A program made the translations under genes and the position numbers. This document shows positions 6,895-32,667 of a stretch of DNA of 32,667 nucleotides, in pieces. The notes below the pieces were generated by a model. The model was given only the letters and a program-made list of their open reading frames with translations. It was not told the DNA's origin and ran no database searches. This stretch comes from a virus: the IMG/VR virus record IMGVR_UViG_3300008450_000238, positions 1 through 32,667 of that record. One strand, written 5' to 3'. The stretch's first letter is position 1. Each line of letters opens with the position of its first letter.

Positions 6895-7425
6895 ATGAAA
6901 ATAGGTTTATGTGGAACAATGAGTGTAGGTAAAACTACATTAGTAAATACTTTAAAGGAATTACCTGAATTTGCAAATTATAATTTTGCTACTGAACGTT
7001 CAAAATATTTGCGTGATTTAGGTATTCCTTTGAATACTGATTCAACATTAAAAGGTCAATTTGTATTTTTGGCTGAACGTTGTGCTGAGTTAATGAATGA
7101 AAATATTATTACAGATCGTACTATTATTGATGTAATGGCATTTACTAAAGCAGCTAAATCTATTGATTATTATGAGGCTGAGGCATTTTGTGATGCTGCT
7201 TATAAGTTGTTGCCTGAATATGATTATATTTTTTATGTTTCTCCTGAAGGAGTAGATATGGAAGATAATGGTGTTCGTGAAACTGATTTAAAATATAGAG
7301 AAACTATTGATGATATAATTAAATTAGTACTTTATAGAAGCAATCATAAAATTAAAAGTTTAACTGAACTATCAGGTACTACTGAGGAACGCATTAATAA
7401 AATGAAAGAAACAATTTTTGGATAA
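6895..7425 (+). CDS. P-loop NTPase/kinase, NadR-like AAA_28 type
   Basis: This 176-residue protein has Walker A GTMSVGKTT at residues 7-15, directly after the first strand MKIGLCG. ATERSKYLRDLGI supplies conserved Arg/Glu residues, and ITDRTIIDVMAFTKA fits the DR-x(n)-D segment of AAA_28 kinases, the fold of the nicotinamide-riboside kinase domain of NadR and related phage kinases. DYIFYVSPEG is the following core strand, and GVRETDLKYRE looks like the lid with catalytic Arg. Length fits a single kinase domain. The substrate is unknown; a nucleotide, nucleoside or NAD precursor would be typical. It sits with the FAD dehydrogenase, which makes a cofactor or redox link possible but unproven. 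Confidence 0.72.
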   Translation: MKIGLCGTMSVGKTTLVNTLKELPEFANYNFATERSKYLRDLGIPLNTDSTLKGQFVFLAERCAELMNENIITDRTIIDVMAFTKAAKSIDYYEAEAFCDAAYKLLPEYDYIFYVSPEGVDMEDNGVRETDLKYRETIDDIIKLVLYRSNHKIKSLTELSGTTEERINKMKETIFG

Positions 7426-7434
7426 TATTTATAA
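7425..7434 (+). promoter_or_regulatory. ATATTTATAA start-proximal motif, copy 2
   Basis: An exact ATATTTATAA starts at the last base of the preceding stop codon and ends 2 nt before the ATG at 7437, the first gene of the 7437-10116 group. Confidence 0.6.
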
Positions 7435-7436
7435 TC

Positions 7437-7868
7437 ATGAAGAAATCTGAATTAGCTACAGAAATTAAAAATCAAATATACGAACTTTTATCTGAAGTTG
7501 ATGTTGACCCTAAAGTAGGTTCAGTAGTAATGAAAAAAGGTGCTAATCCTGCTGATATTAAAAAAGTAACTTCTCAAGGCATTGATGTTGAATTAAGAGA
7601 AGAAGAAGATGATAAAGAACCTACTAAAGCTGAACTTGAAAAAGAAAAAGTAAAAGGTGCACCTTCTAAATTTAAAGTATCAAATGATCAATTTAATGAT
7701 TTTAAAGAAAGATTAAAAACTTTAGTTAAGAAAATTAAAGATATGGAAAAAGGAGCCGAAAAAGATAAAAAAATGGCTGCCCTAAAACAATTTATTAAGA
7801 AACCTGAATTAGTTAAAGCGTTTAAAGAAAGAGACGTTAAAATTGATACTGGTGGATTAGTAGGATAA
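7437..7868 (+). CDS. Conserved hypothetical phage protein, charged and helical
   Basis: This 143-residue protein starts MKKSELATEIKNQIYELLSE, an amphipathic helix ending L-x-E. A short segment PADIKKVTSQGIDVELREEE follows, then a Lys/Glu-rich helical region to the C terminus. No catalytic motif is recognised. The N-terminal helix ending in LSE resembles the T4 capsid-targeting/cleavage pattern and several neighbours show the same kind of start, so an internal head protein is one possibility. The spacing to the next gene is 1 nt. Confidence 0.58.
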   Translation: MKKSELATEIKNQIYELLSEVDVDPKVGSVVMKKGANPADIKKVTSQGIDVELREEEDDKEPTKAELEKEKVKGAPSKFKVSNDQFNDFKERLKTLVKKIKDMEKGAEKDKKMAALKQFIKKPELVKAFKERDVKIDTGGLVG

Positions 7869-8542: not shown

Positions 8543-10116
8543 GTGAAAATGTAAATTTAAAAGAAGTCATAAGGCAGGAATATATTAAATGTTTAAATGA
8601 TCCTGCCCATTTCATGAAAAAATACTGCCACATTCAGCATCCTCAACGTGGCAGAGTATTATTTAATTTATATCCCTTCCAGGAAAAAACATTACGTTTA
8701 TTTAGAGATAATCCATACTCAATTGTATTAAAATCAAGACAATTAGGTATCTCAACACTAGCCGCAGGTTATTCTTTATGGTTAATGTTATTTCATAAAG
8801 ATAAAAACGTACTTTGTATTGCAACTAAACAAGAAACTGCTCGTAACATGGTTACGAAAGTTAAGTTTATGTTTGATAATTTACCTTCATGGTTAAAAAT
8901 ACAAGCAGAAGAAAATAATAAACTGTCATTACGATTAAGTAATGGTTCTCAAATTAAAGCCACTTCAGCAAGTAGTGATGCTGGTCGATCAGAAGCAGTA
9001 TCTTTGTTGTTAGTGGATGAGGCAGCATTTATTGAACAAATTGGAGAAATATGGGCATCAGCACAACAAACATTAGCAACAGGTGGTGGAGCAATTGTAC
9101 TTTCAACACCATATGGAACTGGAAACTGGTTTCATAAAACATGGGTATCAGCAGAAAATGCTGAAAATGATTTTTTACCTATTAAATTACCTTGGTATGT
9201 ACATCCTGAACGAGATGATGCTTGGAGAAAACGTCAAGATGAATTATTAGGTGACCCAAGATTAGCATCACAAGAATGTGATTGTGATTTTAGTACATCT
9301 GGTGATGTTGTTTTTTACAATGAATGGGTTGATTTTATTAAAGAAACATCCATCCAAGATCCAGTTGAAAGAAGAGGAGCCGACCAAAATTTATGGATAT
9401 GGGAACCTGCAGACTATACAAGAGATTATATGGTAGTAGCAGACGTAGCTAGAGGTGATGGTAAGGACTTCTCAACATTTCACGTAATGGATATTGTAAC
9501 TAACACACAAGTTGCAGAATATAAAGGTCAAATGCCTCCTAAAGAATTTGGATACTTTTTAGTTGCTATTTCTACCGAATATAACCAAGCACTTTTAGTA
9601 GTAGAAAATGCCTCTATTGGTTGGGCAGCTATTGAATCAGTATTAGAAAGAGGATATAGAAACCTCTATTATTCACCTAAGAGTGATAATTTAACAGTTG
9701 ATTCGTATTTTCATAAGTACGAAAATAGTGATAATGTTACTCCTGGTTTTACTATCTCATTAAAAACTCGTCCTTTAATTGTAAATAAATTTAGAGAATA
9801 CGTTGGAGATAAATCAGTAACAATTCGCTCAAAAAGATTGTTAGAAGAAATGAAAGTATTTGTTTGGAAAAACGGTAGACCAGAAGCACAAACTGGTTAT
9901 AATGATGATTTAGTAATGCCTTTTGGTATTGCTATGTATCTAAGAGATACTTCATTAAAATTCCAACAACAATCTCATGATTTAACAAGAGCTACTCTTG
10001 GTAGTTTTTCAAAAGGCACATCAGGTTTTAATGGTGCTTATAACTCAAATAATGTTCCTAATCCTTATTCTATTGAAACAAACAACGGAATGGAAGACAT
10101 TAAGTGGCTTTTATAA
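8539..10116 (+). CDS. terL: Terminase large subunit (T4 gp17-like)
   Basis: This 525-residue protein is the DNA-packaging motor ATPase and headful nuclease. The N-terminal ATPase has a deviant Walker A, KSRQLGIST at 65-73, where Lys is shifted upstream of the Gly-x-Ser-Thr as in several terminases. Walker B is LLLVDEAAF with D160-E161, and LSTPYGTGNWFHK (189-200) is the coupling motif. The C-terminal RNase H-like nuclease shows the three acidic sites: D302 in VVADVARGDG, E356 in LLVVENASIGW and D456/D457 in GYNDDLVMPFG. The length is a little below T4 gp17 (610 residues). Its ATG overlaps the previous stop by 4 nt, and the portal gene follows after 18 nt and an ATATTTATAA motif. Confidence 0.96.
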   Translation: MSENVNLKEVIRQEYIKCLNDPAHFMKKYCHIQHPQRGRVLFNLYPFQEKTLRLFRDNPYSIVLKSRQLGISTLAAGYSLWLMLFHKDKNVLCIATKQETARNMVTKVKFMFDNLPSWLKIQAEENNKLSLRLSNGSQIKATSASSDAGRSEAVSLLLVDEAAFIEQIGEIWASAQQTLATGGGAIVLSTPYGTGNWFHKTWVSAENAENDFLPIKLPWYVHPERDDAWRKRQDELLGDPRLASQECDCDFSTSGDVVFYNEWVDFIKETSIQDPVERRGADQNLWIWEPADYTRDYMVVADVARGDGKDFSTFHVMDIVTNTQVAEYKGQMPPKEFGYFLVAISTEYNQALLVVENASIGWAAIESVLERGYRNLYYSPKSDNLTVDSYFHKYENSDNVTPGFTISLKTRPLIVNKFREYVGDKSVTIRSKRLLEEMKVFVWKNGRPEAQTGYNDDLVMPFGIAMYLRDTSLKFQQQSHDLTRATLGSFSKGTSGFNGAYNSNNVPNPYSIETNNGMEDIKWLL

Positions 10117-21617: not shown

Positions 21618-22022
21618 ATGTCAGCAAACACATCCCCAATATTTGCCCTAGTTCCTGAAACCTCTATTGTTACAGTAACATTAGCAACCACAGACAGAAC
21701 AGGAGCTATTACTAATAACTTATCCGATTTATTAACAGCCTCAACCGACGGAACAAAAATAACCCAAATAGGGGCAAAGGTTGCAGGGAATAACGTGGCA
21801 ACAAACGTATTAATTTTTATCACAAATACAAGCGGAACGAGTCCTAAGTTATTTGATGAAATTGCCCTACCAGCAGTTACCGCTTCAACTACGGCAACAT
21901 CGCAAAGACAAGTAACTGCATATAGTGATTTGCAATTAAAAAGCGGTCAAAAAGTACTTGTAGGAATTACCGTTGCAATATCCGATGGAGTTAATATTTT
22001 TGCAATAAAAGGAGATTATTAA
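21618..22022 (+). CDS. Hypothetical beta-rich tail-region protein
   Basis: This 134-residue protein has SIVTVTLATTDRTGAITNN, LLTASTDGTKITQIGAKVAG, NVLIFITNTSG and LQLKSGQKVLVGITVAISDG. It has the alternating strands and small-residue composition of trimeric fibre-associated or adaptor proteins. A similar small protein occurs later at 24060. It starts 3 nt after the truncated fibre gene and overlaps the next gene by one base. It shows fewer of the Thr-Gly-Ser repeats of its neighbours and somewhat more GC-rich third positions. No specific function is recognised. Confidence 0.55.
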   Translation: MSANTSPIFALVPETSIVTVTLATTDRTGAITNNLSDLLTASTDGTKITQIGAKVAGNNVATNVLIFITNTSGTSPKLFDEIALPAVTASTTATSQRQVTAYSDLQLKSGQKVLVGITVAISDGVNIFAIKGDY

Positions 22023-22852
22023 TGCCTGATTTCGGTATTTTTAGAGGGTTTAGTGAAAGTGCATTTAGTGATAAACTATTTGCGGGACAATTGCCTACTG
22101 AATTGGGTTTAATAGGAACTGATAACAGTGTATTTGAATCCGAATATAGGGCAGTAATTGCATACGCTAAATCAAGAAATTATACCTTACCAAGTTCATC
22201 ACAGCAAATTTTACAAAACAATTTATTATCATCTTTAAAAACCGCTGGTATTTGGGCAAAATTAGATTCATTTTGTTTATTTGCTACAAATGGAAGTAGT
22301 GATTTTGCTTTAATAGATTGGAAAAGATTGACGCAATATACCGCAGTTAATAGTCCTACATTTACGAGCAATCAAGGTTTTCAAAGTAATGGAACAACAA
22401 GTTTTATCAATACAAACTTTAACCCTGCTATTGACGGTATAAATTATCAGTTAGACAATGCAAGTAGATATATGTGGAATTTTACTACAAGTGCAGGTTC
22501 ACGATATTTTGATGGTAACGAAAATTCTAACTCAAATCATATTTACTCCAACAACTCAAATGTACATAAGATAAATACAACTAATAACTTAAGTGCAACT
22601 GTAGCATTAAATACTACTGGATTAATTGGAATAAATAGAACGTCATCAACAAATGTCGAGTTGTTTGACGATACAACGCAATTTTCAAGGACTGCAACAA
22701 GCACCGGTATAACAGATGATCCACAATGGATTTCACGATCTGCAAATAACTACGGTACACAAAGAACAAGTATGTACTTAATGGGTGCTTCTTTAGTAAC
22801 TGAAAATACGGATTTATATAATGCTATGAATACATATATGACTTCAATATGA
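22022..22852 (+). CDS. Putative receptor-binding/tail protein, lectin-like C-terminal region
   Basis: This 276-residue protein is helical in the first 80 residues (YRAVIAYAKSRNYTLPSSSQ and LLSSLKTAGIWAKLDSFCLF). The rest is beta-rich, with FQSNGTTSFINTNFNPAIDG resembling the SIVFDGTNDYV strand of LamG-type domains, then GLIGINRTSSTNVELFDD and MYLMGASLVTENTDLYNAM. The overall layout resembles tail proteins of Bacteroidota phages and prophages with a jellyroll distal domain. It is coupled to both neighbours by overlaps of 1 nt and 4 nt. The receptor-binding role is inferred from position among fibre genes. Confidence 0.55.
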   Translation: MPDFGIFRGFSESAFSDKLFAGQLPTELGLIGTDNSVFESEYRAVIAYAKSRNYTLPSSSQQILQNNLLSSLKTAGIWAKLDSFCLFATNGSSDFALIDWKRLTQYTAVNSPTFTSNQGFQSNGTTSFINTNFNPAIDGINYQLDNASRYMWNFTTSAGSRYFDGNENSNSNHIYSNNSNVHKINTTNNLSATVALNTTGLIGINRTSSTNVELFDDTTQFSRTATSTGITDDPQWISRSANNYGTQRTSMYLMGASLVTENTDLYNAMNTYMTSI

Positions 22853-24395: not shown

Positions 24396-26957
24396 ATGAT
24401 ATACAGTGGTAGAATCCCATATGGAACAAATCAGGTACAAAGTAGTTCATTAGCAATTACTGTTGAAAACACTGATGTAGCAGTTTTTACTACTGGTTCT
24501 TTACTAGTTTCTGGTTCCTTAACCTCATTAGGTGGTTTTACAGGATCATTTTCAGGTAGCTTTACAGGTTCTGCCAATTTTACTACTTTAACATCCTCAA
24601 ATGCTTTAATAACAGGTAATGTAATAGTATTAGGTACTGCCTCTATTAATACTTTGGTTATTAACCAAACACAATTATCAACAGGTTCAAACCAGTTAGG
24701 TGATAATGCTGATGACTTTCAAACTTTATTTGGTACTGTAAGAATACCAACAGGTAGTTTAACAGTGACTGGTTCAACTATTATTTCTAGTTCAGCCGCT
24801 ACTCAATTACAGGTTGGAAGTAATAGTTTATTTGTTTCTAGTTCAGGGCAAGTAGGTATAGGAGTAACTAACCCAACAGGTTCTTTAACAACAAACGGTA
24901 ATATCCAAATAAATAATAATGGAGGATTAACTTTTTATAACGCTAATAGTATATTTTCTTCTCATTATATAACTACCTCAAATGAAGTATTAACAGCTAC
25001 TAGTTACAATAGTTTTGGTGCTTGGAAGTTTAATGGTTATAATGTATCTATAGCTAAAAATTTAGCAGTAGGTACTACTTTAACAGACTTTGTTGTCCCT
25101 TCTCAAACCTTTTTAGTAAGTGGATCTACAGTACTTAAAGGTAATGTTACAATATCAGGTTCAGCAACTAACTCATTATTAATTAGAGGATCAGGTACTA
25201 CAAGTGCTACAACATCCCTAAGAGTAGAAAATTCTTCTGCTAGTCCCTCTTTAACAGTATTAGATAATGGATTTGTAGGTATAGGAGTATCATCACCTAA
25301 TTTCCGACTAGATGTTTCTGGCTCATCAGAATTTATAGGTAATATCCAAGTAACAGGTTCTACCTTTATATCAGCCTCAGCATCAACCTCCTCAGCAGCC
25401 CTACAAGTATATAAATCAGGTTCAACTGTTTTAAACGTTGAAGGTTCCTCAGGACAATTATTTTCAATCACAGATTCTCTAACAGGATCTTTATTTTCAG
25501 TAAATACAGTTGCTGGTTTACCAGTAATAGAGGCATTCTCGGACAATACAGTCAATATTGGTAAATTTGGTATTTACCCAATTAAAGTAGCGGCAACAGG
25601 TACTTTGGCTGTAATTACAGGTTCATTTACTGGATCTTTGGCAGGTGTTTCTGCTACCGCCTCTTTTGTTAATCCATTAACACAGAGTGTGTTAATAACT
25701 GGTTCTTTAACAGTAACTGGTTCTACAACAATTACAGGAACACAAGTTGCTTCTTCCGGAATAGGAAGAACAATGTTGATAACTTCTTCAATATCTGCTT
25801 CTGCAAATAATGATACTTTAGTAGGATTAGATATTAATCCTTCTTTTAACAATGGGGCATTTACTGGAGTTAATAACTATGGTTTTAGAGTTTCAAATAA
25901 CGGAACTTTAAGAACACAGATTGATCAATTAGGTAGACAGGAATGGTATCTAAATGGAGGATCTGCAGAAGTAGGTAAAATTGCTTATAGCACACCAGGA
26001 GCTAACCCTGGAATAATAATTTGGACAGGAGCAACCTACAATTTAAATAGATTTAATCTTATTAATAATGGTACCTATTTTGGTTTAGCATTTGATGCAG
26101 ATGGTTCTGGTCTAGGTCGATTAAATATATTTAATGGAGGTGTTGGTATAGGAACAAGTACAAATTCTGGATTTCAATTAGATGTAAATGGAACAGGTAG
26201 ATTCTCAGGCAACCTAACAGTTACAGGTTCAGCAACTAACTCATTATTAGTTAAAGGATCAGGTACAACCTCCTCCACTACCTCTTTCCGAGTAGAAAAC
26301 TCTGCAGCTACAGCTCGTTTAACCATTTTAGATGATGGTACTTCTGCTTTCAACACAAACAACCTTTATATTAGTTCTAGCGGAAACATTGGTATAGGAA
26401 CATCCTCTCCTACCTCTAGATTATTTGTAAATGGTAATACTTATTTATCAGGCTCAGCAGGTACAGGTTCGGCCCTAACAGTCTACAAATCAGGTTCAAC
26501 AGTAGTATCTATACAAGGTTCACAAGGTGAGTTATTTAGTATCACCGACTCACTTTCAGGATCTTTATTTTCTGTAAGTAACATATCAGGATTACCAATC
26601 CTAGAGGTATTCTCAGACAATACCACTCTAATAGGTAATTACCTAGATCCAATGTTGGTTACCACACAATTGGTAACAGCTAACTCCGGATCAACTACTG
26701 TTTACAGTCTACCGACTGCCTCATACGATGGTGCCTTTTATGATTATGTTGTAAGATCCGGTTCTAACTCTAGGGCAGGTCAAATCATGGCTATTTGGTC
26801 AGGCTCGTCTGTAAATTATACAGATAATTCTACAACAGATTTTGGTTCAACAGCTAATTTGTCTTTCAACGTTATAGTATCGGGTTCTAATATGGTATTG
26901 CGTAGTACTGTGACAACCGGAAGCTGGACAGTAAAAACGATAATAAGAAGTATATAA
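24396..26957 (+). CDS. Long tail fibre/adhesin with internal duplication
   Basis: This 853-residue protein is Thr/Gly/Ser-rich throughout (repeated GSLTVTGSTxI and GSFTGS elements), the pattern of beta-helical trimeric fibres in Bacteroidota and marine phages. A block of about 140 residues occurs twice, near residues 252-390 and 608-748: NSLLIRGSGTTSATTSLRVE against NSLLVKGSGTTSSTTSFRVE, later LQVYKSGSTVLNVEGSSGQ against LTVYKSGSTVVSIQGSQGE, both followed by LFSITDSLxGSLFSV and FSDNT. The region between the copies (NGGSAEVGKIAYS...GLAFDADG) is less repetitive. The C terminus (VVRSGSNSRAGQIMAIWSGS) is a plausible tip domain. The first LamG gene starts 1 nt after its stop. Confidence 0.75.
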   Translation: MIYSGRIPYGTNQVQSSSLAITVENTDVAVFTTGSLLVSGSLTSLGGFTGSFSGSFTGSANFTTLTSSNALITGNVIVLGTASINTLVINQTQLSTGSNQLGDNADDFQTLFGTVRIPTGSLTVTGSTIISSSAATQLQVGSNSLFVSSSGQVGIGVTNPTGSLTTNGNIQINNNGGLTFYNANSIFSSHYITTSNEVLTATSYNSFGAWKFNGYNVSIAKNLAVGTTLTDFVVPSQTFLVSGSTVLKGNVTISGSATNSLLIRGSGTTSATTSLRVENSSASPSLTVLDNGFVGIGVSSPNFRLDVSGSSEFIGNIQVTGSTFISASASTSSAALQVYKSGSTVLNVEGSSGQLFSITDSLTGSLFSVNTVAGLPVIEAFSDNTVNIGKFGIYPIKVAATGTLAVITGSFTGSLAGVSATASFVNPLTQSVLITGSLTVTGSTTITGTQVASSGIGRTMLITSSISASANNDTLVGLDINPSFNNGAFTGVNNYGFRVSNNGTLRTQIDQLGRQEWYLNGGSAEVGKIAYSTPGANPGIIIWTGATYNLNRFNLINNGTYFGLAFDADGSGLGRLNIFNGGVGIGTSTNSGFQLDVNGTGRFSGNLTVTGSATNSLLVKGSGTTSSTTSFRVENSAATARLTILDDGTSAFNTNNLYISSSGNIGIGTSSPTSRLFVNGNTYLSGSAGTGSALTVYKSGSTVVSIQGSQGELFSITDSLSGSLFSVSNISGLPILEVFSDNTTLIGNYLDPMLVTTQLVTANSGSTTVYSLPTASYDGAFYDYVVRSGSNSRAGQIMAIWSGSSVNYTDNSTTDFGSTANLSFNVIVSGSNMVLRSTVTTGSWTVKTIIRSI
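25144..25565 (+). repeat. Internal direct repeat copy 1 in long fibre gene
   Basis: This is the DNA counterpart of the first fibre block. It shares GGTTCAGCAACTAACTCATT and further stretches with the copy beginning near 26217. Boundaries are approximate, read by eye. Confidence 0.65.
26217..26637 (+). repeat. Internal direct repeat copy 2 in long fibre gene
   Basis: This is the second copy of the fibre block, with GGTTCAGCAACTAACTCATT at its left end, ATCAGGTTCAAC midway and TTCTCGGACAATAC-like sequence at its right end. It has diverged in the middle. Boundaries are approximate. Confidence 0.65.
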
Positions 26958-26958
26958 C

Positions 26959-27609
26959 ATGGCTTTTGCGTATAGTCCTAAAATAGTTACTGATGGTTTG
27001 GTTTTGTATTTAGATGCGGCCAATCCTTATTCTTATGTAAGTGGTTCTACAGCTTGGAATGATATTTCTAGAGGTGGAAACAATGGTACATTAATAAATG
27101 GACCTACTTTTAGCTCGGCTAATAACGGGTCGATTGTATTTGATGGAACTAATGATTATGTTAATTGTGGAAATTTATCCTTAGGATCAACTGTTACATT
27201 AAATATTTGGTTTAAACAAACAACAACTACAAATAATAAAGGTTTAATAGCACTTGGTAATACTCATTTTTACCTAGGGGGACCACCTCTTAGCATTACT
27301 GTATTCAGTGGTAGTCCTCTTTTTGTATATGGTCCTGGTTTAACACTCCCTTCAAGTTCAACAATTTGGACAATGGCAACATGTGTGATAGATTCTTCTA
27401 ATATTTCCCTATTTTTAAATGGAGGGTCAAAAATAACAGGAACTAACACTTTACAGACATCAGGAAATGTGCGACTTGGATCTTATCCAGGAGGAGCAAA
27501 TCCATTTAATGGTAATATAGGACTAGCGCAAATTTATAATCGAGCACTTACAGATGCAGAAGTCCTACAAAACTACAACGCAACAAAAGGCCGTTTTGGT
27601 CTAACATAA
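26959..27609 (+). CDS. LamG/ConA-like domain protein, array member 1
   Basis: This 216-residue single-domain protein is an apparent jellyroll (LamG_3, concanavalin-A-like). The left signature is KIVTDGLVLYLDAANPYSYV, then WNDISRGGNNGTLINGPTF and SIVFDGTNDYVNCG. The centre is individual (TVTLNIWFKQTTTTNNKGLI). The right signature is AQIYNRALTDAEVLQNYNATKGRFGL. Such domains typically bind carbohydrate, and a host-surface adhesion role fits its place after the long fibre. There is no signal peptide, as expected for virion proteins. It starts 1 nt after the fibre stop, and the next member starts 1 nt after its own stop. Confidence 0.78.
   Translation: MAFAYSPKIVTDGLVLYLDAANPYSYVSGSTAWNDISRGGNNGTLINGPTFSSANNGSIVFDGTNDYVNCGNLSLGSTVTLNIWFKQTTTTNNKGLIALGNTHFYLGGPPLSITVFSGSPLFVYGPGLTLPSSSTIWTMATCVIDSSNISLFLNGGSKITGTNTLQTSGNVRLGSYPGGANPFNGNIGLAQIYNRALTDAEVLQNYNATKGRFGLT
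27535..27603 (+). repeat. Conserved 3' block of LamG genes, array member 1
   Basis: This encodes YNRALxxxEVLQNYNATKGRFG. The block recurs at the 3' end of every complete LamG unit: 28261-28327, 28943-29010, 29668-29736, 30632-30700, 31291-31359 and 31973-32031. Five of these share TACAACCGCGCCCT exactly, with conserved AACTATAACGCAAC-like sequence near the end. The block is more GC-rich than the gene interiors. Boundaries were read by eye. Confidence 0.7.
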
Positions 27610-27610
27610 T

Positions 27611-29014
27611 ATGGCAGGTAGAATAGCATATTACGGCAACATAGCAACCCAAGGTCTGGTTTTAAACTTGGATGCAGCCATTCAAGGATCTTATCCTAAA
27701 ACAGGTTCAACCTGGTTTGACATTTCAAACAATGGAAACAATGGTACTTTAACTAATGGACCTTTGTATACTGGATCTGATTATGGGGCAATTAGGTTTG
27801 ATGGAACTAATGATTATGTAACGGGTTCGGTTATTAATACACCTAATCAATTAAGTGTCTTTTGTTTTAGAAATCCTAAACCTAGAGCAGGTACTGTTTA
27901 TCCATCAGCTATTAATAAATGGTTTGCTCAACCTGGTGATAATAGAAGTTGGACTATAGGAAGCCAACCTGGAGGAGTTGATTATGTGATGATATCATCT
28001 GATGGTACTTATACAAACTCAACTATAAAACGATTTGAATTTTCCTCTAGTGTTTCAAATAATATATGGACACAAGTTGGATTTACTTTTAATAATGGAA
28101 CTTTAGTACCATATTTAAATGGTGCTCCTGCTAGTTACACGGCTTCTTTAAACGCTAATATAACAAGTATCTATACATCAAGTATTGGCTATAGTCTAGG
28201 ATATCAAAAAGATGGGGCATTTGATACTTACTTTTCAGGATCAATAGCAACCGCACAAATATACAACCAATCCCTCTCCCAATTCCAAGTATGGCAAAAC
28301 TTTAATGCTTATAAATCCAGGTATGGAATACCAGACATAGTAACCGACGGACTGGTCTTAAACCTAGATGCAGGTAATCCTTATTCTTATTTATCAGGAT
28401 CTTCAGGTACTACTTGGTCTAATACAGTACCAGCTAGTAGTAGTATTTCTGGGTCATTAGAAAATGGAACTACTTATTCAAATGGGGCTATGGTGTTTGA
28501 TGGGGTGGATGATTATGTTAACAATGGAACCTCCTTTGTAAATCTAACAACACAATTAACAATTTGTTTTTGGGGTAAAATTGCGGGAAGTCCAAATGAT
28601 GGTATACTAGTAACAAAAGGAGAAAACGATGGATCAATTACAAGTAATTTTGGATTTCAAATTTCTAATATAGGAGGTCCTAATAGACTTAGACTCTATG
28701 CTAAAGCATCAGGCCAAAACTACATTACTATAGATAGTAGTGATAATATAAGAGATAATAATATTAATCTATATACTTTAACTTTTAATTCAGGTACTGT
28801 TATTTTTTATAAAAATAGTAGTTTATATTCTTCTCACAGTTTTGGATTATCCACATTACCCTCAACTACAGGGCCTTTATATGTAGGAGCTTTAAAAGGG
28901 TATTCAGCTTATTATCCTGGAAATATTTACAGTATCCAAATCTACAACCGCGCCCTAAGCGCAACCGAAGTCCAACAAAACTTTAACGCCCTAAGAGGCA
29001 GATACGGAATATGA
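27611..29014 (+). CDS. Two-domain LamG/ConA-like protein, array member 2
   Basis: This 467-residue protein is two array units fused in frame. Domain 1 (about 1-240) runs from QGLVLNLDAAIQGSYPKTGS to AQIYNQSLSQFQVWQNFNAY and KSRYGI. Domain 2 begins at once with PDIVTDGLVLNLDAGNPYSY and ends IYNRALSATEVQQNFNALRG with RYGI. The junction near base 28330 lacks the stop and ATG that separate all other members, so it looks like a recombination product or an ancestral dimer. The domain 1 right edge has diverged most (NQSLSQFQVW in place of NRALSxxEVL). It overlaps the next member by 4 nt (ATGA). Confidence 0.78.
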   Translation: MAGRIAYYGNIATQGLVLNLDAAIQGSYPKTGSTWFDISNNGNNGTLTNGPLYTGSDYGAIRFDGTNDYVTGSVINTPNQLSVFCFRNPKPRAGTVYPSAINKWFAQPGDNRSWTIGSQPGGVDYVMISSDGTYTNSTIKRFEFSSSVSNNIWTQVGFTFNNGTLVPYLNGAPASYTASLNANITSIYTSSIGYSLGYQKDGAFDTYFSGSIATAQIYNQSLSQFQVWQNFNAYKSRYGIPDIVTDGLVLNLDAGNPYSYLSGSSGTTWSNTVPASSSISGSLENGTTYSNGAMVFDGVDDYVNNGTSFVNLTTQLTICFWGKIAGSPNDGILVTKGENDGSITSNFGFQISNIGGPNRLRLYAKASGQNYITIDSSDNIRDNNINLYTLTFNSGTVIFYKNSSLYSSHSFGLSTLPSTTGPLYVGALKGYSAYYPGNIYSIQIYNRALSATEVQQNFNALRGRYGI

Positions 29015-29739
29015 GTACACTAAACGGAGGACCAGGCAATATAGTAACCAATGGATTGGTATTGTATTTGGATGCGGCCAATTATCTTTCTTATACCTCA
29101 GGATCAACTGTTTGGAGAGATTTATCCTCTAGTAATAACAGTGGATCTTTAATAAATGGACCTACATTTAATACTGGGAGTGCTGGATCAATTGTGTTTG
29201 ATGGGACTAATGATTATTGTATTTTTGGTTCTTCAATAATACCTACAACTTCTAACTGGACTTATTCTAGTTTTTTTAATTTAAATACTTTAGTAACAGG
29301 AAGTGTTTTATATGGTCAATACATAGCAGCGGGAGGAAATGGAAGATTTTTAATAAGATTATCGGACGATGTAAACAATACTAATAAATTTAGTTTATTT
29401 TTAGGAAGTGGTGGTAGTTATAGCAATGCTTTTTTATACACAAATATTACCGCTAGTATTAATACAACTTATAATCTCACAATAGTTAGAGAAAATCAAA
29501 CCTTTAATTTTTATATAAATGGAGTATATAATACAGGAAGTACAGTAAATTTTACAGCTAGTCTATTACAGACCACTCCTATTATAGGAGGTAGAACAAA
29601 CTCAGGAACAAACCCAACTCCTGTAGATGTTGATTTTTTAAATAGTAGAATATTCAATACTCAGATATACAACCGCGCCCTCTCCCCCTCAGAAATCCTC
29701 CAAAATTATAACGCAACCAAAGCACGCTTTGGATTATAA
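29011..29739 (+). CDS. LamG/ConA-like domain protein, array member 3
   Basis: This 242-residue protein has NIVTNGLVLYLDAANYLSYT, WRDLSSSNNSGSLINGPTF and SIVFDGTNDYCIFG on the left and TQIYNRALSPSEILQNYNAT with KARFGL on the right. The middle (LNTLVTGSVLYGQYIAAGGN, YNLTIVRENQTFNFYINGVY) is unlike the other members apart from a shared strand pattern with a FYxNG turn. It overlaps member 2 by 4 nt and is followed by an ATATTTATAA motif. A probable adhesin or fibre-tip module; the target glycan is unknown. Confidence 0.78.
   Translation: MSTLNGGPGNIVTNGLVLYLDAANYLSYTSGSTVWRDLSSSNNSGSLINGPTFNTGSAGSIVFDGTNDYCIFGSSIIPTTSNWTYSSFFNLNTLVTGSVLYGQYIAAGGNGRFLIRLSDDVNNTNKFSLFLGSGGSYSNAFLYTNITASINTTYNLTIVRENQTFNFYINGVYNTGSTVNFTASLLQTTPIIGGRTNSGTNPTPVDVDFLNSRIFNTQIYNRALSPSEILQNYNATKARFGL
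29668..29736 (+). repeat. Conserved 3' block of LamG genes, array member 3
   Basis: It contains TACAACCGCGCCCTCTCC at its left end and encodes the NRALSPSEILQNYNATKARF edge. TACAACCGCGCCCTCTC is shared exactly with the blocks of members 4, 5 and 6, although the genes' centres are unrelated at DNA level. Confidence 0.7.
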
Positions 29740-29740
29740 A

Positions 29741-29750
29741 ATATTTATAA
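29741..29750 (+). promoter_or_regulatory. ATATTTATAA start-proximal motif, copy 9
   Basis: An exact ATATTTATAA ends 3 nt before ATG 29754. It lies inside the LamG array and splits it into two expression groups. Confidence 0.6.
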
Positions 29751-29753
29751 CAT

Positions 29754-30035
29754 ATGACACAAGTAACAGATTACGACAACAGAACATTCATGATATTTGA
29801 AGTATCAGAACTAGATCAAATTGATTTTACCCAAGTATGTGAAACTTCAGCAGACACAGTACGTAAGTCTGTTGATGAAACAAAAACATTTGTTAAATGG
29901 GATGGGGTAATGCCTACATGCGTTGCTGATTTATATACAAAAGAAGGACCTTACACTTATGAGGAAATTTTAGTTATTTTAGCTACTGATGAGTGGACTG
30001 ATCCTAATCCAATTGGAATGATGGGAGGAGAATAA
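29754..30035 (+). CDS. Small acidic hypothetical protein within the LamG array
   Basis: This 93-residue protein (MTQVTDYDNRTFMIFEVSEL, then DFTQVCETSADTVRKSVDET, FVKWDGVMPTCVADLYTKEG and EEILVILATDEWTDPNPIG) has no LamG signature. It is acidic and alpha/beta, with two cysteines. I do not recognise its family. It starts a new group behind motif copy 9 and overlaps the next LamG gene by one base, so it is co-translated with it; a chaperone or attachment factor for the adhesins is possible, with no direct evidence. Confidence 0.6.
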   Translation: MTQVTDYDNRTFMIFEVSELDQIDFTQVCETSADTVRKSVDETKTFVKWDGVMPTCVADLYTKEGPYTYEEILVILATDEWTDPNPIGMMGGE

Positions 30036-30703
30036 TGAGTTTTAACAACGGACCTACAGTAGTAACAAACGGCCTAGTATTGGCATTAGATGCTGGGGAT
30101 AGAAATTCCTATGCTGGTTCTGGTACTACGTGGTTTGATTTAATTGGAAGTAATAACAGTACGTTATTTAATGGTCCTACATTTGATACCGCTAATGGAG
30201 GTTCAATAGTAACAGATGGATCAAATGATGTAATATCTGGGTCAATAACAATGCCTTCATCTTTTACTTGTAATTTTTGGTTTAATCCAACTCAAGTAGC
30301 TGATTATAATCCAAACTTTCAAATTAGTGAAGCATGGGGAAATTTTGTATGGCATTCTACAAGTGCTGGTTCTATATACTGTGGTACTGACATTACTAAT
30401 AGATTTACTCCATCTTCCCCAGGATGTGGTAATGGAGCAGTGGTTTTAAATACAATACAAAATTTTACTTATACTTTTAGTAGTAATGTTGGTTCTTTAT
30501 ATAAAAACGGAAGACTTTTAGTATCATCAAATAGCCACCAAACACCTGTAAGTGCCTCTAATGTACAACCTTATTTTGTGTTAGCTGCTCCGGCACAATT
30601 TGGAAGAGGAAAAGCTTATATCTTCCAACTATACAACCGCGCCCTCTCCTCTGACGAAGTCCTACAAAACTATAACGCAACAAAAGGGAGGTTTGGTTTA
30701 TAA
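30035..30703 (+). CDS. LamG/ConA-like domain protein, array member 4
   Basis: This 222-residue protein has the left edge TVVTNGLVLALDAGDRNSYA, WFDLIGSNNSTLFNGPTFD and SIVTDGSNDVISG, where the usual VFDG is replaced by VTDG. The right edge is FQLYNRALSSDEVLQNYNAT with KGRFGL. The middle is distinct: CNFWFNPTQVADYNPNFQIS and YCGTDITNRFTPSSPGCGNG, with two cysteines that could pair. The start overlaps the preceding stop (TAATG), and member 5 starts in the same overlapping way at its own stop. Confidence 0.78.
   Translation: MSFNNGPTVVTNGLVLALDAGDRNSYAGSGTTWFDLIGSNNSTLFNGPTFDTANGGSIVTDGSNDVISGSITMPSSFTCNFWFNPTQVADYNPNFQISEAWGNFVWHSTSAGSIYCGTDITNRFTPSSPGCGNGAVVLNTIQNFTYTFSSNVGSLYKNGRLLVSSNSHQTPVSASNVQPYFVLAAPAQFGRGKAYIFQLYNRALSSDEVLQNYNATKGRFGL
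30632..30700 (+). repeat. Conserved 3' block of LamG genes, array member 4
   Basis: It contains TACAACCGCGCCCTCTCC followed by GAAGTCCTACAAAACTATAA. The second stretch is identical in member 5. Confidence 0.7.
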
Positions 30704-31362
30704 TGGGAGTAGCAGGTGGACCAGATATGATTGAAAACGGATTAGTATTATCTCTTGATGCATCAGATAGAAACTCTTATGTATCCGGTTCTACAACATG
30801 GTTTGATTTATCTGGAAATAACAATTCAGGATCTTTAGTTAATGGACCTACTTTTAATACAGGGTCATTAGGGTCAATTGTGTTTGATGGTGTGGATGAT
30901 TATGTGAGTGCTCCATCATCTTTATATGTTGATAATTTTACTTTAAATGCATGGGTTTATAAAACAACCTCAGGAATTCAAAATATAATAGCAAAAGGTA
31001 ATGTGTCTTTTCAATTAAATTTTTATTTAAGGATCGCTGGAAATTCTGGTTTTTTTGGAGCTAGCGGTGGTTTTACTGAGATTACTATAGCTGACCTTAC
31101 ATTAAATACTTGGAATAATACAGTTTTAACATATGATAAAAACAATTTAAGATATTTTTTAAATGGTGTATTTATAAACCAAGTTAGTGCTACTAATACC
31201 CCCACTTCATCATCCAGTAACACTATAATAGGTAGATTAGGTGATTTTAATGGACAATATTGGACAGGAAGAATAGCATCTACCTCAATCTACAACCGCG
31301 CCCTCTCAGCCCAAGAAGTCCTACAAAACTATAACGCAACTAAAGCCCGTTTCGGATTATAA
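30703..31362 (+). CDS. LamG/ConA-like domain protein, array member 5
   Basis: This 219-residue protein has the left edge DMIENGLVLSLDASDRNSYV, WFDLSGNNNSGSLVNGPTF and SIVFDGVDDYVSAP. The centre shows the classical LamG strand order, FTLNAWVYKTTSGIQNIIAK then WNNTVLTYDKNNLRYFLNGV. The right edge is TSIYNRALSAQEVLQNYNAT with KARFGL. FDGVDDYV, W-N-V and FLNG are standard LamG_3 positions. It is coupled to member 4 by TAATG; the next member follows after 6 nt. Confidence 0.8.
   Translation: MGVAGGPDMIENGLVLSLDASDRNSYVSGSTTWFDLSGNNNSGSLVNGPTFNTGSLGSIVFDGVDDYVSAPSSLYVDNFTLNAWVYKTTSGIQNIIAKGNVSFQLNFYLRIAGNSGFFGASGGFTEITIADLTLNTWNNTVLTYDKNNLRYFLNGVFINQVSATNTPTSSSSNTIIGRLGDFNGQYWTGRIASTSIYNRALSAQEVLQNYNATKARFGL
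31291..31359 (+). repeat. Conserved 3' block of LamG genes, array member 5
   Basis: It contains TACAACCGCGCCCTCTC and GAAGTCCTACAAAACTATAA, as in member 4. It encodes NRALSAQEVLQNYNATKARF. Confidence 0.7.
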
Positions 31363-31368
31363 CACAAT

Positions 31369-32034
31369 ATGGCAACACAATATTCTTTTGGTAAAATAGT
31401 AACAGACGGTCTAGTATTATGTTTAGATGCTGCCGACAGAAACTCCTATGTGTCTGGTTCAACAGTATGGAGAGATGTGGCCAGTTCTAATAATGGTACT
31501 TTAACTAATGGACCTACATTTAATACTGGGAGTGGAGGTAGTATTGTGTTTGATGGGGTGAATGATTATGTTGTACATCCTTCCTTAGATTTAGGGACTA
31601 TATGTTCTTGGAGTGTATGGATTAATTATGTTAGAGCTAATAACTCAAATGAAGCTTTTGTAGTTTTAGGTGCTAATCAAAATAATAGATATAATTTATT
31701 TTATAACTTTCCAGATAAAACATTTTATATTAGTTATGGTAATAATCAATTTGCTAGTTTTACTTACAGCCCAGGATTAAATGCTAGTACCTGGTATAAT
31801 ATAACCCATGTAAGGGAAGGAAGTGTAACAACTATTTATTTAAACGGAACTTTTATAGGAACAATAACAAGGGTATCAAGTGTATCTTCTTTATTTAATC
31901 TTATAGGTACGGAAACAACAGCTGCTTATTTTTCAAATATAAGATTATCAACAGTTTCTTATTACAACCGCGCCCTCTCTTCCACAGAAATCCTTCAAAA
32001 CTACAACGCACAAAAATCACGCTTTGGACTATAA
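31369..32034 (+). CDS. LamG/ConA-like domain protein, array member 6
   Basis: This 221-residue protein has the left edge KIVTDGLVLCLDAADRNSYV, WRDVASSNNGTLTNGPTF and SIVFDGVNDYVVHP. The middle is CSWSVWINYVRANNSNEAFV and STWYNITHVREGSVTTIYLN. The right edge is VSYYNRALSSTEILQNYNAQ with KSRFGL. All core LamG_3 strands are recognisable and the length equals that of members 4 and 5. It is followed by motif copy 10 and another array member. Confidence 0.8.
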   Translation: MATQYSFGKIVTDGLVLCLDAADRNSYVSGSTVWRDVASSNNGTLTNGPTFNTGSGGSIVFDGVNDYVVHPSLDLGTICSWSVWINYVRANNSNEAFVVLGANQNNRYNLFYNFPDKTFYISYGNNQFASFTYSPGLNASTWYNITHVREGSVTTIYLNGTFIGTITRVSSVSSLFNLIGTETTAAYFSNIRLSTVSYYNRALSSTEILQNYNAQKSRFGL

Positions 32035-32036
32035 CC

Positions 32037-32046
32037 ATATTTATAA
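32037..32046 (+). promoter_or_regulatory. ATATTTATAA start-proximal motif, copy 10
   Basis: An exact ATATTTATAA followed by CATATT ends 6 nt before ATG 32053. Confidence 0.6.
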
Positions 32047-32052
32047 CATATT

Positions 32053-32667
32053 ATGCCAGTAAAAGGAGGACCAAACATCAGAACCAGCCAAGCCATTGTA
32101 TGGCTAGATGCTGCCGACAAATCCTCATATCCCGGAACCGGTACTACTTGGGTTAACTCGGTTACACCAGGTACCTACAATGGTACTTTAACTAACACAA
32201 GTTTTAATTCCACAGATGCCTTAGGTGCTTTGTTTTTCTCCGGCTCAAACACATTTGCCGATATGGGAAATATAGGGGCTATTTCTGCCTCTTACACTTT
32301 TCAAGTGGCGGTAAAACCTTTACCAACAGGTTCCCCTTATACTATCCTATCTTATACCTCCGGGTCAGGAACAGGATCAGTTACTTTTAGATTGGATTAT
32401 TCCTCATCTATACAAACAGCCGTTTTTTCGGCTTTTGCAAGTTCAGGGTCAGTAAATAAAACCTATAGTTTATCAACTACTATTCCTACAGGATCTTGGT
32501 CTATATTGCATGGGGTGTTTGGAGGTGTTTCTTTAGGTCTTTATAAAAATGGCTCTTTCATTAACTCTACTTTTATTACAGGCTCTACTGTTGGTTATTC
32601 AGCCAATAATAGGTTTTTAGTGGGTGGTATCTCCCAATTTACAGGATCTTATTTATCAGGTTCTGTA
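32053..32667 (+). CDS. LamG/ConA-like domain protein, array member 7, partial
   Basis: This frame is open from ATG 32053 to the window end (205 codons, no stop). It begins MPVKGGPNIRTSQAIVWLDA with ADKSSYPGTGTTW next, a divergent left edge (IVWLDA in place of LVLxLDA). TYNGTLTNTSFNST and ALFFSGSNTFADMG follow in place of the VFDGxNDYV strand. The downstream sequence is TGS-rich (TSGSGTGSVTFRLDYSSS and LGLYKNGSFINSTFITGS), a mix of LamG strands and fibre-like composition. The right signature NRALS is not reached, so this member is probably longer than the others. The start is supported by motif copy 10 six nt upstream. Confidence 0.72.
   Translation, partial: MPVKGGPNIRTSQAIVWLDAADKSSYPGTGTTWVNSVTPGTYNGTLTNTSFNSTDALGALFFSGSNTFADMGNIGAISASYTFQVAVKPLPTGSPYTILSYTSGSGTGSVTFRLDYSSSIQTAVFSAFASSGSVNKTYSLSTTIPTGSWSILHGVFGGVSLGLYKNGSFINSTFITGSTVGYSANNRFLVGGISQFTGSYLSGSV

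Follow-up and report, generated by a model that had tools for sequence, protein, structure and literature searches.

The distal tail-fibre adhesin of the T-even phages (gp37/gp38) reportedly undergoes swapping, as Tetart, Desplats and Krisch are said to have described in 1998 (J Mol Biol 282:543). In that system, as its title, a passage describing it and general knowledge present it, a tail-locus gene of T4-type phages has variable recognition segments set between conserved motifs, and the segments are exchanged when these motifs recombine. Domain shuffling in phage receptor-binding proteins and metagenomic islands, in which near-identical backbones carry unrelated host-recognition alternatives, are ascribed to recombination in the searched passages of two other reports (PMC10684548; PMC7468147). 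The window analysed here is the entire 32,667-base IMG/VR virus record IMGVR_UViG_3300008450_000238, a fragment of a larger virus, and its right end carries a tandem array of genes for LamG domains. Our working hypothesis, which we regard as likely, is that this is a tail-locus array whose cores are replaced by recombination, as whole cassettes, between constant edges.

The array resembles the T-even adhesins in having conserved motifs on either side of a variable, putative recognition segment, in its place in the tail locus of a T4-type phage, and in an exchange of segments between the conserved motifs, to which the comparisons below point. It differs in that the domains are LamG jelly rolls with no gp37/gp38 family match (Pfam and PHROG scans return LamG families, with only a marginal match, 0.004, to one tail fibre family), in that one core lies between two constant edges, where gp37/gp38 is presented as alternating glycine-rich motifs and hypervariable loops, and in that many tandem genes are accompanied by a conserved small partner gene (here called SM), as against a single T-even adhesin. 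By analogy, the array would work like T-even adhesin swapping without being a member of the gp37/gp38 system, a likeness drawn from the title, the passage and general knowledge just mentioned. With the proteins of PMC10684548 and PMC7468147 it shares related backbones that carry unrelated alternatives; however, whereas the typical case in the searched passages is a single gene with a constant N-terminus and a swapped C-terminus, in the present array the two ends stay constant and it is the core that is swapped, repeatedly along the tandem genes, and the same passages make no mention of LamG, lectin or concanavalin. The cyanophages S-PM2 and S-SKS1 encode a LamG domain with recognisable edges and 34–38% amino acid (aa) identity to the window type, but it is part of proteins of about 960–1058 aa instead of a row of single-domain genes. 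In an isolate, Flavobacterium phage immuto (Immutovirus), LamG genes follow a tail-fibre-like gene, as in the window, and a diverged SM-like gene (33.6%) lies two genes further on, but the LamG series is shorter. A literature search, which did not cover subscription papers, turned up no account of phage LamG arrays. Adhesin mosaicism is already known; what is new here is that the genes stand in tandem, that constant sequence frames the core on either side and that SM accompanies them. The swapping logic of the T-even adhesins would recur in a large number of uncultured T4-like phages, spread over an array of genes, and natural pairs are numerous enough for replacement to be measured.

The array consists of seven plus-strand genes with eight LamG domains (open reading frame (ORF) starts at 26959, 27611, 29011, 30035, 30703, 31369 and 32053), the last gene running off the end of the contig. 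In a Pfam profile scan the six complete genes all match PF13385 (Laminin_G_3; E 1.8e-27 to 3.9e-9) above its curated cut-off of 27.6 bits, and the truncated gene falls just under it (25.4 bits, E 1.7e-5); ORFs and profile matches agree that the array of seven genes and eight domains, as originally predicted, is real. The units are U1 (26959..27609; PF13385 E 3.6e-16, and alignment), U2a (27611-28324) and U2b (28325-29011), fused in one two-domain gene (27611..29014; PF13385 E 1.8e-27 in two stretches), U3 (29011..29739), U4 (30035..30703), U5 (30703..31362; PF13385), U6 (31369..32034; PF13385) and the truncated U7 (32053..32667; E 8.5e-8 in a search of its own record). A codon alignment of the window units confirms that similar N- and C-edges enclose unrelated centres: conservation covers residues 1–66 and the last ~25 residues, whereas the ~130-residue centre is near random, at about 0.12–0.35 aa and 0.32–0.48 nucleotide (nt) identity. 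Three scans of IMG/VR yielded about 220 relative loci, some of them overlapping (the L-numbers used below), with 558 LamG units in 160 loci; three units per locus is the most frequent number (59 loci) and 14 the maximum.

The evidence that carries the exchange reading comes from units of different phages that are paired by matching DNA outside the unit, with flanks at least 78% identical. Among 97 such pairs (63 phage pairs), 88 have unrelated cores (16–31% aa identity), nine have retained cores (85–100%) and none is intermediate, so that cores replaced within intact edges, which the original prediction proposed to look for in related phages, are found in most pairs. A similar split is seen among distinct units whose two edges each reach 74% nt identity or more, where core aa identity is 0.1–0.4 in 57 pairs, at least 0.7 in 15 and in between in none. 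The gap between replaced and retained cores is unfilled, which argues against gradual change; cores are replaced all-or-none, and in this sample replacement outnumbers retention among phages that are more than a few per cent apart. L018 and L193, for example, have flanks of 4.1 kb (92.6% identical) and 5 kb (88%), and their junctions and SM are 83–92% identical; all three matched cores are unrelated, and L009 holds a third alternative core at the position compared. L018 also has three units more than L193, gained or lost at junctions, as the exchange claim had included. Between L023 and L031 the flanks are 92.2% and 98.4% identical and one unit junction 91%, with middle cores that cannot be aligned, and a similar pattern of replacement is seen in L064/L177/L189, L041/L213, L014/L019 and L051/L211; in L064, L189 and L177 it is accompanied by the shift of one core from position 1 to position 2. 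The window itself has three junctions in common with L011, at 81–85% identity, between cores that cannot be aligned in DNA: the internal U2a/U2b junction (28232-28518; 84.7% to L011 345-631), followed by a U2b C-edge (28967-29016) that is 96% identical to L011 1080-1129, the U4/U5 junction (30656-30890; 81.4%) and the U5/U6 junction (31287-31572; 80.8% to L011 3254-3537), beyond which the U6 core is only 25% identical in aa. A fourth window junction, U2b/U3, is found in another locus (81% over 281 nt to L174), and the U4 core is 63% identical in aa to unit L032:70.

Converse cases are also present, in which cores 84–92% identical in nt lie inside scaffolds that are 63–81% identical. The core and the two edges stand at 0.92 against 0.63 and 0.74 nt identity in L048/L050, at 0.92 against 0.71 and 0.67 in L047/L189 and at 0.88 against 0.76 and 0.65 in L166/L183, and window U5 shares with unit L009:7 a core of 75.6% aa and 77% nt identity between edges of 63% and 69% nt. 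Since the edges are the protein-conserved part, core identity above edge identity contradicts vertical descent. L009 unit 1 is plainly mosaic, its core matching window U5 and its C-edge, SM and next N-edge being 91.8% identical to L193; within one array, the N-edges of the L018 units at 9337 and 10001 have 86 nt in common without a mismatch, their C-edges are at 0.88, and their cores are at 0.23 aa identity. Near-identical cores in foreign scaffolds thus join the flank-anchored pairs in supporting recombination-based exchange. Tandem duplication followed by rapid, diversifying point mutation of the core, with edges under purifying selection and no exchange at all, would account for cores that retain their fold, for the protein motifs common to paralogous edges and for a synonymous excess within the array that is modest (see below), but it is at odds with bimodal core identities that lack intermediates at flank identities of 78–98%, with exact cores found in different scaffolds, and with the cores of L048/L050 and L047/L189, which are closer in DNA than the protein-conserved edges and incompatible with descent and mutation; we consider it very improbable. 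As a separate observation, two adjacent units of L191 (3-1322) have cores 98% identical in aa, with an exact stretch of at least 200 nt, and different edges (0.86, 0.83), which would be explained either by conversion of the core inside one array or by faulty assembly.

Fitted breakpoints lie mostly at model columns 62–68 and 194–218, and breakpoints cluster after 'VFDGVDDYV' and around 'YNRALS..EVLQNYNA'. These are the ends of the jelly-roll core, and non-homologous (illegitimate) recombination anywhere in the gene, with selection keeping the chimeras that fold and edge homology irrelevant, would place them there too; donor and recipient edges are, moreover, often only 60–75% identical in nt. 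Such a process would not, however, be expected to leave edges conserved at the DNA level, as they are in places (the exact 86 nt of L018 and the GC-rich block at the C-edge), or to change unit number exactly at junctions, and we regard it as unlikely. The GC-rich block had been described as nearly the same in six complete units, which overstates a match of 17 nt: TACAACCGCGCCCTCTC is exact only in U3 (C-edge about 29666-29736), U4 (about 30630-30700), U5 and U6, U2b has the near variant TACAACCGCGCCCTAAGC, and the blocks of U2a (TACAACCAATCCCTCTC) and U1 (TATAATCGAGCACTTAC; C-edge about 27529-27606, N-edge about 26959-27162) have diverged. That it is richer in GC than the interiors holds true, the G+C content at third codon positions (GC3) being 0.46 in the block stretch against about 0.10–0.18 in LamG interiors. 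Its codons TAC, AAC, CGC, GCC and CTC encode 25, 32, 4, 13 and 0.7% of the respective amino acids in other window genes, CGC and CTC being rare there (10 of 265 Arg and 5 of 755 Leu codons). Given the rare codons and raised GC3, the block, where present, is explained by a common origin and not by chance. An exact search of the viral contigs for the full block pattern found one locus only, so that as DNA the block is lineage-specific. A general rise in GC3 at gene ends of this phage was considered and rejected, the last 30 codons having 0.15–0.20 in other genes and 0.30–0.50 in LamG genes.

Several points weigh against the working hypothesis. The original prediction held that the block and edges are conserved at synonymous sites, and a codon-shuffle test within the window array bears this out only in part: identity at synonymous sites is 0.57 against an expected 0.46 for residues 31–63 (z 3.3) and 0.57 against 0.49–0.54 for the C-edge over all units (z 0.6–1.1), a modest excess that is not clearly above that of the core, where the handful of same-residue sites likewise lies above expectation (z 4.8). 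With same-residue sites near saturation the test tells very little, and it does not separate edges from core because core sites exceed expectation as well; on its own the window array would leave the question undecided, and it is the comparison between phages that decides it. The 97 anchored pairs have loci and phages in common and include some near-duplicates, and so cannot be counted as independent events. The IMG/VR scans brought up no backbone more than 90% identical to that of the window, and replacement in the window lineage therefore rests on the junctions of 81–85%. Breakpoints at fold boundaries could reflect selection for folding chimeras in place of homology-guided crossover, and receptor binding and virion location of the LamG proteins are predicted, from modelled fold and gene position. 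Finally, the data come from metagenomic contigs. Assembly chimeras joined at repeated edges might be suspected in repeat-bearing arrays from such contigs, and the exact internal repeats of L018 (86 nt), L072 (41 nt) and L191 (at least 200 nt) call for care; yet in 18 of the 21 arrays checked the longest exact repeat is 29 nt or less, well under typical read length, and array orders recur across separate metagenome records (L213/L215-L218, L160/L197, L196/L201, L222/L228). We hold chimeras to be extremely unlikely.

Each LamG gene has a constant left edge of about residues 1–66, to VFDGVDDYV, and a constant right edge of about the last 20–28 residues (YNRALS..EVLQNYNA.K.RFGL), with a variable core of about 130 residues between them. 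Under the hypothesis of cassette replacement, crossover in or near the edges, whether it joins two phages or two units of the same array, would swap whole cores and insert or delete units at junctions, the edge homology serving as its substrate; junctions (a right edge plus the next left edge), SM and the flanking genes would descend together, and the cores would set glycan specificity. It is tempting to speculate further that this is an evolved cassette platform, in which constant junctions act as standing homology, SM is a general assembly factor open to any core, homing endonucleases at junctions prime exchange, and T4-like lineages that are otherwise unrelated draw on a common stock of exchangeable glycan-binding cores, an idea that we put forward as possible but doubtful.

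Other exchange machinery was also considered. A reverse transcriptase (PF00078), as in diversity-generating retroelements, and a serine recombinase or resolvase (PF00239), as in invertible tail-fibre (Gin/shufflon-type) systems, were each absent from all ten array-bearing records searched, with positive controls; the records may be fragments and did not include the window record, and tyrosine recombinases lay outside the search. Homing endonuclease genes do abut LamG units. An HNH gene lies exactly between two LamG ORFs in L016 (2265-3065), GIY-YIG genes lie at unit junctions in L213-L218 and L021, and the one in L165 separates SM from LamG; HNH or GIY-YIG genes adjoining units are at L213 738-1460, L021 10784-11536, L165 2066-2779, L017 679-1401 and L051 3510-4211. 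The L021 gene starts about 30–40 nt past a LamG-like N-edge start, and that of L213 is missing from the sister locus L041, the unit next to the gene having an N-edge at 0.99 and a core at 0.20. This is what would be seen if junction-resident homing endonucleases drove exchange by cutting arrays that lack them and co-converting the neighbouring core. However, only a handful of array loci carry them, most replaced cores have no adjoining endonuclease, and the seven of about 20 endonuclease matches that abut LamG or SM are not a demonstrated excess over the gene-junction expectation for LamG-centred loci. As the driving force they are improbable, being too scarce for a general motor of exchange; in the cassette model, endonucleases borne on junctions may sometimes start an exchange.

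The window phage is T4-like, since it has terminase, portal, gp23-type capsid and PhoH genes: the T4-type terminase, portal and major capsid match phrog_2, phrog_213 and phrog_138 (E 3.5e-51 to 1.5e-70), and the capsid protein is 57% identical to the gp23-type capsid of Flavobacterium phage immuto. An AlphaFold2 model of the LamG domain is a confident jelly roll (pLDDT 85, pTM 0.86), for which Foldseek returns lectin-like jelly rolls, the best viral matches being LamG/ConA-like phage proteins. Matches in the PDB to sialidase and clostridial binding domains were set aside as generic jelly rolls at no more than 22% identity, without functional implication. The locus adjoins T4-type head and tail genes, and two LamG-array proteins of immuto are annotated 'structural protein', an annotation whose basis could not be found. 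From fold, location and this annotation, the array proteins are most likely virion receptor-binding or adhesin proteins. The known LamG family binds glycans, and membership of the superfamily suggests by analogy that the window domains may do so; if the cores grip host sugars, as we presume, a core swap could let a phage alter host recognition in single steps. The survey also provides a collection of lectin cores that can be interchanged, a constant scaffold open to testing and, tied to the array, the uncharacterised SM family. In the U5 fold search, LamG proteins of Aureococcus anophagefferens virus, an algal giant virus, ranked third and fifth (35–36% identity), as close to U5 as the cyanophage proteins, and this type of LamG possibly circulates widely.

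The small gene between the third and fourth LamG genes (SM; 29754..30035, plus strand) had been taken for an unrelated interruption, and this did not hold: it belongs to a conserved, uncharacterised family of ~90 aa found beside LamG genes in many phages. The 93-aa window copy is 69–85% identical to 33 aligned relatives, and is more conserved than the LamG units. SM is present in 132 loci (a single copy in 120), and of 154 copies 121 lie directly downstream of a LamG gene, beginning no more than 120 nt past its end; the association holds from both sides because loci were chosen separately by LamG and by SM. Synechococcus phage S-SKS1 likewise has a 59%-identical copy directly after its LamG protein gene. 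Searches of Pfam, PHROG, PDB sequences and Foldseek gave nothing significant for SM, whose predicted structure reaches a pTM of only 0.64, and a scan with SM found no relatives in genome contigs. Position and conservation suggest that it may be an assembly or chaperone factor. L160, L161, L162 and L197, which have both LamG genes and SM, belong to very large contigs of up to 373 kb; a further SM copy, diverged from the first, is at locus positions 7401-7637.

Immediately upstream of the array lies a repeat-rich, probable fibre gene of 853 aa (24396..26957, plus strand), with relatives of its stretches at 30–68% identity in many array-bearing loci, just 5' of the array in several. Further upstream, the first ~35 residues of the gene at 22022-22852 are conserved (64–82%) over many loci and the remainder is unrelated, and the gene 5' of it (21618-22022) retains 71–88% identity; judged by this pattern, 22022-22852 looks like an attachment tip with exchanged C-terminal domains. 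A motif with the core TATTTATAA occurs just 5' of ATG at gene junctions, on the sense strand only in the window (plus strand; 3298, 7426, 10117, 12024, 14345, 20979, 23081, 24042, 29742 and 32038). In the LamG loci, counted with overlapping loci retained, 254 copies of ATATTTATAA lie on the sense strand against 31 on the other, and 190 of the 254 sense-strand copies have an ATG within 24 nt. The reverse complement of the TATTTATAA/ATATTTATAA motif contains TATAAATA, the T4 late-promoter core.

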